In this document: positions 34,390-37,878 of the stretch, in pieces
How positions within the stretch are numbered: position 1 is the first letter of the stretch
How the letters are laid out: each line of letters starts with the position of its first letter
Assembly (NCBI RefSeq): GCF_009674675.1
Contig: NZ_WKJC01000001.1
Span: forward strand, 1,433,031-1,497,030
DNA from: Kangiella sp. HZ709
Lineage (GTDB): Bacteria; Pseudomonadota; Gammaproteobacteria; Enterobacterales; Kangiellaceae
DNA length: 64,000 nt
Direction of reading: 5' to 3'
The notes under the pieces: model-generated
What the model was told of the DNA's origin: nothing
The model's database searches: none
Seen by the model: the letters and a program-made list of their open reading frames with translations, nothing else
Translations under genes and position numbers: made by a program

Positions 34390-34417
34390 AAAAAACGCCA
34401 TTAAGAAATGGCGTTTT
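34390..34417. terminator. Terminator embedded in the 3' end of rpoH
   Basis: On the minus strand AAAAACGCCATT pairs with AATGGCGTTTTT around TCTT. The last sense codons and the TAA stop of rpoH are inside the hairpin. Runs of A and T on both sides make it usable in both directions. Confidence 0.85.
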
Positions 34418-35249
34418 TGATTTTGTTCATGGCATTTTTTTCCAGCTGACGAATTCGCTCTGCAGAAACACCATATTTATCGGCCAGCTCATGCAGAGTT
34501 GACTTCTGATCGGTCAACCAACGTTGCTGCAAAATATCTTGGCTGCGATCATCAAGTGTTTTCATCGCAGACATCAAGCGTGCTTCACGCTGATCCTGCC
34601 AATCATTTTGCTCGATTTCTACCGCAGGATCTAAGCTTTTTGACTCCAAATAATGTACCGGAGCATAAGCTTGAGCATCATCATCGATGGCAGGCGCATC
34701 AAAAGCGGCATCATGCGCATTCAAACGCCCTTCCATTCGCATCACTTCTTCTGGTGATACATTTAGATCTTCGGCAATTGCCTTTACTTCCGCTTGATTT
34801 AACCAATTTAGCTTCTTTTTCTTAGAGCGCAGGTTAAAAAACAATTTACGCTGCGCCTTAGTAGTGGCAACCTTAACAATACGCCAATTCTTTAGTACAT
34901 ACTCATGAATTTCCGCTTTGATCCAATGTACTGCAAATGATACTAAACGCACGCCCATAGTCGGATCAAAACGCTTAACCGCCTTCATTAGACCAATGTT
35001 TCCTTCTTGGATAAGGTCTGCTTGTGGCAAGCCATATCCATTGTAACCTCTTGCTATATGAGCCACAAATCGTAAGTGAGCCATTACTAACTCACGTGCA
35101 GCATCTAAATTTTCTTCATCTCTGAAGCTATGAGCTAATGCCTGTTCTTCTTCTACAGATAGGACAGGAATTGCATTGACAGACGAGACATAACCCTCGA
35201 TGCTGCCTGTTGGTACGGCTAATGCCATAGACAATGAAGTGTTGCTCAT
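34401..35249 (-). CDS. rpoH: RNA polymerase sigma-32 factor RpoH
   Basis: Heat-shock sigma factor, 282 aa, the usual size. Region 2 shows [24 protein letters not shown] (given in part) and [20 protein letters not shown]. The diagnostic RpoH box QRKLFFNLR lies at 133-141, and region 4 ends [31 protein letters not shown] precedes the ATG. Two CIRCE operators lie 32-89 bp upstream, an unusual control. It is the expected neighbour of ftsX but is separated from it by a four-gene cassette on the other strand. Confidence 0.97.
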
Positions 35250-35280
35250 GCTTTCCTCCTATTAATACTTACAATATATA

Positions 35281-35307
35281 TTAGCACTCTTTTATCTAGA
35301 GTGCTAA
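35281..35307. promoter_or_regulatory. CIRCE element 1 (HrcA operator) upstream of rpoH
   Basis: TTAGCACTC (35281-35289), nine bases, then GAGTGCTAA (35299-35307). This is an exact match to the CIRCE consensus TTAGCACTC-N9-GAGTGCTAA bound by the heat-shock repressor HrcA. It lies 32 bp before the rpoH start codon. Confidence 0.93.
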
Positions 35308-35311
35308 TTTT

Positions 35312-35338
35312 TTAGCACTCGCGCACTTAGAGTGCCAA
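35312..35338. promoter_or_regulatory. CIRCE element 2 (HrcA operator) upstream of rpoH
   Basis: TTAGCACTC (35312-35320), nine bases, then GAGTGCCAA (35330-35338), one mismatch from the CIRCE consensus. It repeats element 1 at a 31-bp interval, about three helical turns, so two HrcA dimers could bind the same DNA face. Confidence 0.9.
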
Positions 35339-35444
35339 AACTATTAAATAAGAGACAAATATAAGCAATAAGTTTCATTTTCATGTTAATTATTTATATA
35401 GTGTTTCTCTCAATCTAAGATAAAGCATTGATTTTGGAGGTTTT

Positions 35445-35819
35445 ATGATTGGTTATGTCACTATCGGTACCAACGATTTGAAGCGGTCGTCAGCTTTCTG
35501 GGAGACTTTAATTACTGAAATTGGTGGTAATCGGATGATGGAAACTGATTCTTTTATTGCTTGGATTGGCCCCAATGGCAGTACAGGCATGGGTTTAAAC
35601 AAGCCATTCGATGGTAAACCCGCTACTGTTGGCAATGGTGTTATGGTCGCCTTCGAACTTGAATCCCCGGATCATGTAGACAAGATGTACACCAGAGCGA
35701 TTGAGCTTGGTGCCAGTTGCGAAGGTCCATCTGGTCCACGTAGTGATGGTTTTTATGCAGGTTATTTTAGAGATTTAGACGGCAACAAATGCAACTTCTA
35801 TTACATGAATATGGGTTAA
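35445..35819 (+). CDS. VOC family (glyoxalase/dioxygenase superfamily) protein
   Basis: A 124-aa single-domain vicinal-oxygen-chelate protein. It begins MIGYVTIGTNDLKRSSAFWE, the usual first strand-helix, and ends AGYFRDLDGNKCNFYYMN, the usual last strand with its metal-site position. The catalytic activity cannot be predicted. GGAGG lies 6 bp before the ATG. It is followed 4 bp later by a DUF1304 gene and heads the cassette between rpoH and ftsX. Confidence 0.88.
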   Translation: MIGYVTIGTNDLKRSSAFWETLITEIGGNRMMETDSFIAWIGPNGSTGMGLNKPFDGKPATVGNGVMVAFELESPDHVDKMYTRAIELGASCEGPSGPRSDGFYAGYFRDLDGNKCNFYYMNMG

Positions 35820-35823
35820 CAGC

Positions 35824-36189
35824 ATGTTAAAAAAAATTGCCAACTTTATAACCGCTTTAGTCGCAATCGAGCATATCGGGATTTTAGTTTTAGAAATGTT
35901 CTACTGGGATCACCCTATTGGCCGTAAAGTATTTAATATGACTCCTGAAGTATCAAATTTGTCAGCGACTTTGGCTGCTAACCAAGGCTTGTATAATGGG
36001 TTTCTGGCTGCTGGATTAATCTGGGGCCTCATCACTGGTCGCAAAGATATTAAAATCTTCTTTTTAAGTTGTGTGGTTATTGCGGGGATATTTGGCGCCA
36101 TAACGGCCAAGCCAAGCATTCTATTTACTCAAGCATTACCTGCTTTTACAGCTTTAGTGTTATGGCTAATACAAAAAAATAAGTCGTAA
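35824..36189 (+). CDS. DUF1304 family membrane protein
   Basis: A 121-aa protein with four hydrophobic helices. It is recognised as DUF1304 from the pattern VAIEHIGILVLEMFYWD near the start and the NQGLYNGFLAAGLIWGL segment near 57-73. The function of this family is unknown. It is coupled to the VOC gene (4 bp apart). Confidence 0.85.
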   Translation: MLKKIANFITALVAIEHIGILVLEMFYWDHPIGRKVFNMTPEVSNLSATLAANQGLYNGFLAAGLIWGLITGRKDIKIFFLSCVVIAGIFGAITAKPSILFTQALPAFTALVLWLIQKNKS

Positions 36190-36263
36190 CTGTCGATTAA
36201 TAAAAGACTAATTCGTCATTATTTATGGATAACGTCAATTTTATTAATTAAGAGGAATTTACT

Positions 36264-36617
36264 ATGCAATACTTACTAATGATTTATGCTGCCGAATCAG
36301 CTGAACCAACTCCAGGAAGTGACGAGTTTATGCAGCTCATACAAGAGTACGATGTCTTTACTGAAGAAGTTAAAGCCGCAGGTGCTTTTCTAGCCGGTGA
36401 GCCTCTAGAGCCTGTCTCCACTGCTACTACTGTACAAGTACGCAATGGCGAAAGGTTTGTAATAGATGGTCCTTTTGCTGAAACGAAAGAAGTTTTAGGG
36501 GGCTATTACTTATTAGACTGTGAAAACCTAGATCAAGCACTGGAATACGCTGCAAAAATACCATCTGCAAAATACGGGAGTGTAGAAGTACGTCCAATCA
36601 TGCAATTACCAGGCTAA
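36264..36617 (+). CDS. YciI-like (DGPF domain) protein
   Basis: A 117-aa YCII-related protein with the family's DGPFAETKEVLGGYY motif (about 73-87) and the N-terminal MQYLLMIYAAESA strand. The biochemical role is unknown; the fold is a small ferredoxin-like dimer. AGAGG precedes the ATG. DGPF proteins are the characteristic genetic partner of ECF42 sigma factors, and the next gene, 10 bp away, is such a factor. Confidence 0.9.
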   Translation: MQYLLMIYAAESAEPTPGSDEFMQLIQEYDVFTEEVKAAGAFLAGEPLEPVSTATTVQVRNGERFVIDGPFAETKEVLGGYYLLDCENLDQALEYAAKIPSAKYGSVEVRPIMQLPG

Positions 36618-36627
36618 AATAATTAGT

Positions 36628-37878
36628 ATGCAAAACAACAAGGGCACTGACTCCGTAGATATTCAAGTTGAAAGAGCAGTGCGGTCTTGCTACGGAAAAC
36701 TTCTATCCCAGTTAACGTACCATTTTAGAAGTCTTGATCTAGCTGAAGAAGCCATTCAAGAAGCTACTATAAGCGCCTTTGTAAAATGGAAAAAGTTGGG
36801 GATTCCTAATAATCCAGAGTCTTGGTTATTTATAGCTTCTAAACGCAAAGCTATTGATATAATTAGAAAAAATAAGTCACATGCACAAAAAAAACAAAAC
36901 CTGATCATATACAATAAAACAATAGAGCCAGAGGTTATAGAGTTATCAGACCAGGACCGACGTTTGGAATTAATTTTTACTTGCTGTCACCCTGCATTAG
37001 ATACCGCATCTCAAGTAGCACTGACGCTAAATACGGTTTGTGGCTTTAGCGTCGATGAAATCGCCAAGGCTTTCTTATTAAAAAAAACAACCATGGCTCA
37101 ACGCTTGGTTCGTACTAAACAAAAAATCAGTAAAACCAACATACCTTATCAAATACCCGAGCCTCATCAGCTTGAACAACGTTTATCAGGTGTTCTTGGA
37201 GTAATTTATTTGATTTTTAATGAAGCCTACTATTCAAAAGGCAGCAAGTACCTCAGCTCAAAACCACTAGCAGAAGAGGCTATTCGCTTAGCAAAATTAG
37301 TGAATAAACAGCTTCCTCATCGTTCAGAGCTATTAGGCTTGTTAGCTCTTATGGCATTCAACTTTGTTCGTTTCAACGCAAAAATTGATAAGTTCGGCCG
37401 AAGCATTAATTTAAAAATGCAAAATCGACAATTGTGGCAACACGAGTGGGTTGAACGAGGAAATCACTATTTAGAATCTGCGTTAACCTTAAAAAAACTA
37501 GGACCCTATCAAATCCAAGCAGCCATCAGTGCAGTCCATTCAACCTCAAAGAGTTTTGCCGAGACAGACTGGCAGCAAATACATGCCTTATATCAAAAAC
37601 TACTTCAATATCAGACTTCTCCAATTATTGAGCTAAATGCAGCTATCGCCTTAGCTTATAGCAACAAAATAGAGCATTCTTTAAAGCTCATTCAAAAACT
37701 AGAACAAGAAGGACAACTTAGCCAATATCATTTACTTTACATGGCTAAAGCTTATTGCTTAAAAGAACTAAGTAGAAATGAACAAAGTAAAGAGGCTATC
37801 AATCGCGCCATTGAGTTGAGTGATAATCAATTCCAAAAGGACTATTTTCAAAAAGAATTAGAAAGCTGGTTTGATTAA
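36628..37878 (+). CDS. ECF42-type sigma factor with long C-terminal TPR-like extension
   Basis: A 416-aa RNA polymerase sigma factor. Region 2 lies at about 15-85 (LDLAEEAIQEATISAFVKW, PESWLFIASKRKAIDIIR). Region 4 lies at about 115-170 (LTLNTVCGFSVDEIAKAFLL). A 230-residue helical extension of the DUF6596/TPR type follows (GVIYLIFNEAYYSKGS, LNAAIALAYSNKIEHSLKLI). Such factors carry no anti-sigma partner; the extension is thought to control activity. Its 3' end overlaps ftsX by 4 bp. Pairing with the YciI gene is the ECF42 hallmark. Confidence 0.9.
   Translation: MQNNKGTDSVDIQVERAVRSCYGKLLSQLTYHFRSLDLAEEAIQEATISAFVKWKKLGIPNNPESWLFIASKRKAIDIIRKNKSHAQKKQNLIIYNKTIEPEVIELSDQDRRLELIFTCCHPALDTASQVALTLNTVCGFSVDEIAKAFLLKKTTMAQRLVRTKQKISKTNIPYQIPEPHQLEQRLSGVLGVIYLIFNEAYYSKGSKYLSSKPLAEEAIRLAKLVNKQLPHRSELLGLLALMAFNFVRFNAKIDKFGRSINLKMQNRQLWQHEWVERGNHYLESALTLKKLGPYQIQAAISAVHSTSKSFAETDWQQIHALYQKLLQYQTSPIIELNAAIALAYSNKIEHSLKLIQKLEQEGQLSQYHLLYMAKAYCLKELSRNEQSKEAINRAIELSDNQFQKDYFQKELESWFD

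Follow-up and report, generated by a model that had tools for sequence, protein, structure and literature searches.

Tandem CIRCE elements at a sigma-E-type promoter as predicted HrcA operators of rpoH in Kangiella sp. HZ709

We found two CIRCE palindromes directly upstream of rpoH in Kangiella sp. HZ709, and we consider it likely that they are HrcA operators that repress rpoH transcription from a sigma-E-type promoter, GAAACTT-N16-TCTTA. The features of this locus are listed below by their coordinates in the window, the whole 64,000-nucleotide stretch of DNA that was analysed.

34401..35249, minus strand: rpoH, heat-shock sigma factor sigma-32, 282 aa, ATG at 35249; NCBIfam TIGR02392 (rpoH_proteo) 411.5 bits, cut-off 323.1, equivalog level
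35255..35260, minus strand: rpoH ribosome-binding site AGGAGG, located by eye
35281..35307, minus strand: CIRCE 2, the element nearer the rpoH ATG, a perfect TTAGCACTC-N9-GAGTGCTAA, from a motif scan
35312..35338, minus strand: CIRCE 1, the element farther from rpoH, one mismatch, from a motif scan, in a 31-bp register with CIRCE 2
35349..35376, minus strand: sigma-E-like promoter, -35 GAAACTT (35376-35370), N16, -10 TCTTA (35353-35349)
35824-36189, part of the divergent gene set upstream of rpoH: DUF1304 ORF, assigned by Pfam

Read towards rpoH, CIRCE 1 (35338-35312) is followed by 4 bp, CIRCE 2 (35307-35281), AGGAGG (35260-35255) and the ATG. A preliminary description of this DNA had reported one perfect and one singly mismatched CIRCE, 31 bp apart and directly upstream of rpoH. 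Our scan agrees on each point: the elements have 0 and 1 mismatch, the 31 bp is the distance between their starts (leaving the 4-bp gap), a further 31 bp separate CIRCE 2 from the start codon, and the ORF is RpoH by TIGR02392. The 64-kb window has no further match at up to three mismatches; shuffled sequence gave a mean of 0.05 matches, with two or more in 1 of 100 shuffles. The same description had made the regulatory link depend on an hrcA gene in the genome, and was right that none lies in the window. The genome does contain one, the only hrcA recovered by the genome search, on the same contig about 3.5 kb to the left of the window and followed by grpE; its product matches TIGR00331 at 325.9 bits (cut-off 197.2) and PF01628 with an E value of 1.8e-62. 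A search for further elements at groESL and dnaK had also been proposed. groESL has one, starting 106 bp before groES, and dnaK has none with up to three mismatches.

The 2.41-Mb genome thus holds three CIRCEs at up to three mismatches, two at rpoH and one at groESL (reversed control, 0), and because there are no others, hrcA-grpE lacks one as well as dnaK. No CIRCE with up to four mismatches was found within 150 bp (or as much of this as was available) before hrcA in 20 relatives, comprising 19 members of the genus and G020. In a scan of 41 genomes, 19 of the 20 genus genomes examined, this one included, have exactly three sites at up to two mismatches and G008 has four; the reversed control gave one match each in G004, G009 and G017. 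All eight non-rpoH sites that were inspected have groES downstream, and groESL is described as the constant member of the HrcA/CIRCE regulon in the available portion of PMC545781.

In Bacillus, Chlamydia and Caulobacter, HrcA/CIRCE controls groESL and dnaK. The operator sequence and repressor family are the same here; the differences are that the gene for the heat-shock sigma factor would also be a target and that dnaK and hrcA-grpE have no CIRCE at up to three mismatches. At groESL, the CIRCE right arm shares bases with a sigma-32-like CCTTGAG..CCCCAT promoter in all six genus loci inspected, and the corresponding regex had no match at the two non-genus groESL sites inspected. In the same six loci (positions 1498-1543 of locus L003 in this genome), the -35 of this promoter falls within the right arm and spacer, so the groESL operator too appears fused to a stress-sigma promoter. 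At dnaK, CCCTTGAT..CCCACATAT is visible by eye, a motif that the regex did not catch. A sigma-32-like CTTGTAA..GACCCA before hrcA, in this genome and 11 of 20 relatives, was judged too weak to build on.

We then compared the presence of CIRCE at rpoH with the presence of hrcA. The sample of relatives comprised 99 genomes among the matches listed, including this one, and 42 of them have hrcA. rpoH could be located in 92, yielding 96 loci, since four second copies, all in genomes without hrcA, were counted as loci. Seven genomes had no convincing rpoH match and were left out (G032, G035, G038, G057, G062, G080 and G083, of which G032 and G038 have hrcA), as were a stop-broken second match in G029 and RpoS/RpoD-like matches. 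Among the matches listed, a CIRCE with up to three mismatches lies within 400 bp of rpoH in 40 of 40 genomes with hrcA, whereas 52 of the 56 rpoH loci from genomes without it have no CIRCE and four have one with two or three mismatches. As the best rpoH site has at most one mismatch in 39 of the 40 hrcA-bearing genomes, these four look like eroding remnants; it is possible that an hrcA was overlooked in G025, which was scored as lacking the gene and is assembled in 330 contigs. A more distant sample of 80 named loci, mostly from Gamma- and Betaproteobacteria, gave the same picture, with CIRCE at rpoH in 32 of 36 loci with hrcA and in 2 of 44 without (Fisher p 8e-23 for the relatives and 1e-15 for the named loci, in tests that ignore kinship). 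The four hrcA-bearing loci without a standard CIRCE are L020, L030, L046 and L067. The two sites without hrcA, L011 and L034, both come from metagenome bins, so the gene may be missing from the assembly.

CIRCE at rpoH thus tracks hrcA and is ordinary where HrcA survives. The preliminary description had implied that the arrangement is rare and had looked to conservation in relatives for support. The implied rarity is not supported: proteobacteria that have retained hrcA commonly have CIRCE at rpoH, and according to the available portion of PMC545781 the arrangement had been published for Geobacter sulfurreducens. The conservation was found: the sites are kept in all 20 genus genomes examined, and in the order and the class their presence goes with that of hrcA. 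The sigma-E-like promoter next to the operators, described below, does not feature in the preliminary description.

Two side observations concern the repressor itself. A variant palindrome, GCAGTC-N9-GACTGC or close to it, lies upstream of rpoH in L026, L030 (Xanthomonas), L057 and L067, three Xanthomonadaceae-type loci and one unassigned bin. The change is symmetric or partly symmetric, and such variants suggest that HrcA specificity may have shifted. The HrcA matches of L038 (Pseudoalteromonas, E 1e-11) and G089 (E 4e-35) are much weaker than in other hrcA-bearing genomes despite a perfect CIRCE before rpoH; these HrcA proteins were perhaps acquired or are fast-evolving.

Sigma-E promoters have a GGAACTT-like -35, a spacer of 15-17 nt and a TCNNA-like -10, and by this consensus GAAACTT-N16-TCTTA upstream of rpoH is a predicted sigma-E promoter. 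The genome encodes RpoE (TIGR02939, 319.5 bits, cut-off 236.15); upstream of rpoE itself a strict sigma-E regex had no match, and by eye a GGAACTT can be seen, separated by a 17-nt spacer from a weak -10. Elsewhere in the window, a sigma-E-like GGAACTT-N16-TCTTA motif at 428-455 on the plus strand is followed, about 170 bp on, by an outer-membrane assembly gene whose ORF has a BamE domain (PF04355, 81.4 bits). The rpoH promoter ends 10 bp before CIRCE 1, with its -10 outside that element. The start is predicted near 35342, which would place CIRCE 1 from about +4, and HrcA would thus act immediately past it. A GAAACTT, GGAACTT or TGAACTT box precedes CIRCE 1 in 20 of 20 genus alignments, with TC[TA]N 16 nt after it in 17 genomes and one base farther in G002, G007 and G014. 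A sigma-E-like motif occurs within 250 bp upstream at 41 of the 96 rpoH loci (among the matches listed); 200 mononucleotide shuffles gave a mean of 0.2 and a maximum of 2, and the region from -700 to -450 had the motif at 0 of 96 loci. It is about equally common in named loci without hrcA (20 of 44) and with it (15 of 36), and so the promoter is independent of HrcA and outlives it.

In many lineages the predicted promoter and operator share DNA. In 26 relatives (13 of the genus and 13 others), the -10 consists of the last left-arm bases and first spacer bases of CIRCE 1; the promoter is 22-23 bp farther upstream in this species and five close kin (G004, G011, G015, G016 and G017), and 14 bp farther in G008. 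Left-arm mismatches occur in 3 of these 26 composite first sites and right-arm mismatches in 23, whereas 18 other first sites show no lean (6 left, 5 right). CIRCE 2 leans the same way more weakly (left 6 of 31, right 12 of 31). The constancy of the left arm, inflated by kinship, fits a double duty as putative operator and -10. Beyond the relatives, RAACT starts 15-16 bp before the element in 18 of the 34 CIRCE-bearing named loci (null mean 0.3, largest 4, 2000 shuffles), and 16 of the 34 have no RAACT at 14-17 bp. A class-wide scan for GAACTT-N8-10-TTAGCACTC returned 61 sites in 60 of 369 genomes, and the reversed pattern occurred in 2 genomes. Thirty of the 61 sites were inspected, and 28 of them are a CIRCE followed by rpoH, in 16 families as judged by genome codes; the other two, one in G320 and one in this genome away from rpoH, have no right arm and look like chance.

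These data bear on a different reading, in which HrcA represses rpoH at an ordinary sigma-70 promoter within the CIRCE region and the sigma-E-like motif is an independent second promoter outside HrcA control. In its favour, a CIRCE arm can resemble a -35 box, the sequence that follows CIRCE 2 is AT-rich across the genus (by eye), the -10 in this species lies outside CIRCE 1, and the motif is as frequent in named loci without hrcA as in those with it. A consensus scan for sigma-70 promoters over 35200-35460 found none (shuffles, mean 1.0), although such a scan might miss a promoter on which HrcA acts. The fixed distance from -35 to CIRCE in the 26 relatives and in 18 of 34 named loci, and the position of 28 of 30 composite sites before rpoH, would be unexpected if the two elements were independent. 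We regard this reading as unlikely.

A second alternative holds that the repeats are RNA hairpins in the rpoH leader, serving mRNA stability, thermosensing or attenuation, and not DNA operators. Both CIRCEs do fold (-46.7 kcal/mol for the leader and gene start, z -3.2), and here both would be transcribed if the upstream promoter is used. On both strands, CIRCE 2 (window 35280-35308) is also picked out as a terminator-like stem ending in a T-rich tail (2 found, 0.1 expected), which probably reflects nothing more than its palindromic sequence. Hairpins of this kind would not explain why the elements track hrcA (40 of 40 against 4 of 56 among the matches listed); mismatched arms in the genus have no compensating changes (by eye), and in the 26 relatives a transcript started at the sigma-E-like promoter would lack part of CIRCE 1, which overlaps its -10. 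This explanation is very improbable.

The tandem itself is conserved within the genus. Two CIRCEs in an exact 31-bp register occur in 20 of 20 genus genomes examined (among the matches listed), with CIRCE 2 starting at -58 to -63 relative to rpoH. Pairwise difference across the 20 genomes is 0.053 (5.3%) in the arms, 0.477 (47.7%) in the 9-nt spacers and 24.1% in the 4-bp gap, and arms that are kept around variable spacers are, at the level of sequence, the signature of an operator. rpoH was located in 17 other genomes of the family: 10 of them carry a second site with at most four mismatches, spaced by 30, 31 or 33 bp, and the remaining 7 carry a single site. G076, which is not in the family, carries a pair spaced by 33 bp. 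An exact-core tandem scan of 369 class genomes found two, this genome and G336 (42 bp, with an RpoH-like ORF after it, by eye), which is a lower bound, as the scan misses core mismatches. Spacings of 30, 31, 33 and 42 bp are suggestive of helical phasing, in few lineages.

The gene upstream of rpoH varies among the 12 genus genomes inspected (of 20). This species and several kin have a divergent set containing glyoxalase-like, DUF1304 and YCII ORFs (Pfam), other members of the genus have a co-directional YceI-like gene (by eye), and 4 of 5 family members inspected (of 17) have ftsX (by eye). In the window, the divergent set occupies 35445-37878 on the plus strand, between ftsX and rpoH, and also includes a sigma-70-like ORF with DUF6596. 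The neighbour changes while the CIRCEs stay, so the sites belong to rpoH, and we give almost no credence to the alternative that they control the divergent set from 35445 onward, which draws on the intergenic region common to both in this species and is contradicted by the replacement of those genes in the genus and family while the sites remain with rpoH.

For the preferred reading, repression of rpoH by HrcA at a sigma-E-type promoter, we propose the following mechanism; HrcA binding, use of sigma-E, cooperativity and the sign of regulation are what we infer from the features described above. Two HrcA dimers would sit about three helical turns apart on the same face of the DNA, and would bind cooperatively if this near three-turn spacing has its usual meaning. 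Bound HrcA would block sigma-E RNA polymerase at rpoH, immediately past the start in this species and its five close kin and over the -10 in the 26 relatives. HrcA would be active only with GroE, so that when GroEL is occupied by unfolded protein HrcA would be released and rpoH transcribed, with the highest output when sigma-E, too, has been activated by envelope stress. Modulation of HrcA by GroE is described for B. subtilis and C. trachomatis in the available portion of PMC9959188. RpoH would then act on groESL through the sigma-32-like promoter that overlaps the only other CIRCE in the genome, which would be freed at the same moment as the rpoH operators. HrcA would in this way repress groESL twice, directly and through rpoH, and a rise in GroEL would restore HrcA and close the loop, giving a feed-forward loop with negative feedback.

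Parts of this arrangement have precedents. The available portion of Rodionov et al. 2004 (PMC545781) reports a perfect CIRCE at -51 of G. sulfurreducens rpoH. That case resembles the present one in having CIRCE before rpoH and groESL in the regulon, and differs in that G. sulfurreducens is a delta-proteobacterium, one site is given and no sigma-E-like promoter is mentioned in that portion. In the portions available of PMC545781, PMC3989490, PMC10696704, PMC5904260, PMC3557214, PMC9959188 and PMC2758279 there is no mention of CIRCE at rpoH beyond G. sulfurreducens, and neither these papers nor the available portions of PMC9131926, PMC12194929 and PMC3224663 mention a sigma-E/CIRCE composite. 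Our search of the open-licence literature, which excludes most subscription papers, found no published sigma-E/CIRCE composite or tandem CIRCE at rpoH. On these partly available sources, CIRCE before rpoH is already known from G. sulfurreducens, and the composite and the tandem at rpoH are apparently unreported. A 2003 survey of beta-, gamma- and epsilon-proteobacteria (Permina and Gelfand) may list further CIRCEs at rpoH.

The rpoH gene of Escherichia coli has a sigma-E-dependent promoter, P3, and so shares with the locus described here a sigma-E-type promoter before rpoH. Our hrcA search had no match in the E. coli control genome, and hence there would be no HrcA gate at E. coli rpoH. Tentatively, and with somewhat more doubt than conviction, we propose that the ancestral rpoH promoter of Gammaproteobacteria (including Betaproteobacteria) was a composite in which the same DNA served as sigma-E -10 and as left arm of the HrcA operator. 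Such a promoter would be an AND-NOT gate, letting envelope stress raise sigma-32 only if GroEL is overloaded. Lineages that lost HrcA would have eroded the operator and kept the sigma-E promoter, the enteric sigma-E promoter of rpoH would be a relic, and the 31-bp tandem would be a later tightening in one family.

Sigma-32 and HrcA are generally portrayed as alternative ways to control the heat-shock response. Our analysis suggests that the two systems may be wired together in many proteobacteria; in this class, where both exist, they would usually be stacked, with HrcA upstream of sigma-32, and in many lineages a sigma-E envelope response and a GroEL sensor appear to converge on the same bases. 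The system offers a direct test of a chaperonin sensor gating a sigma-factor cascade, and the genomes provide a natural series for the dismantling of such a gate, from hrcA kept, to hrcA lost with an eroded operator, to hrcA lost with no operator.
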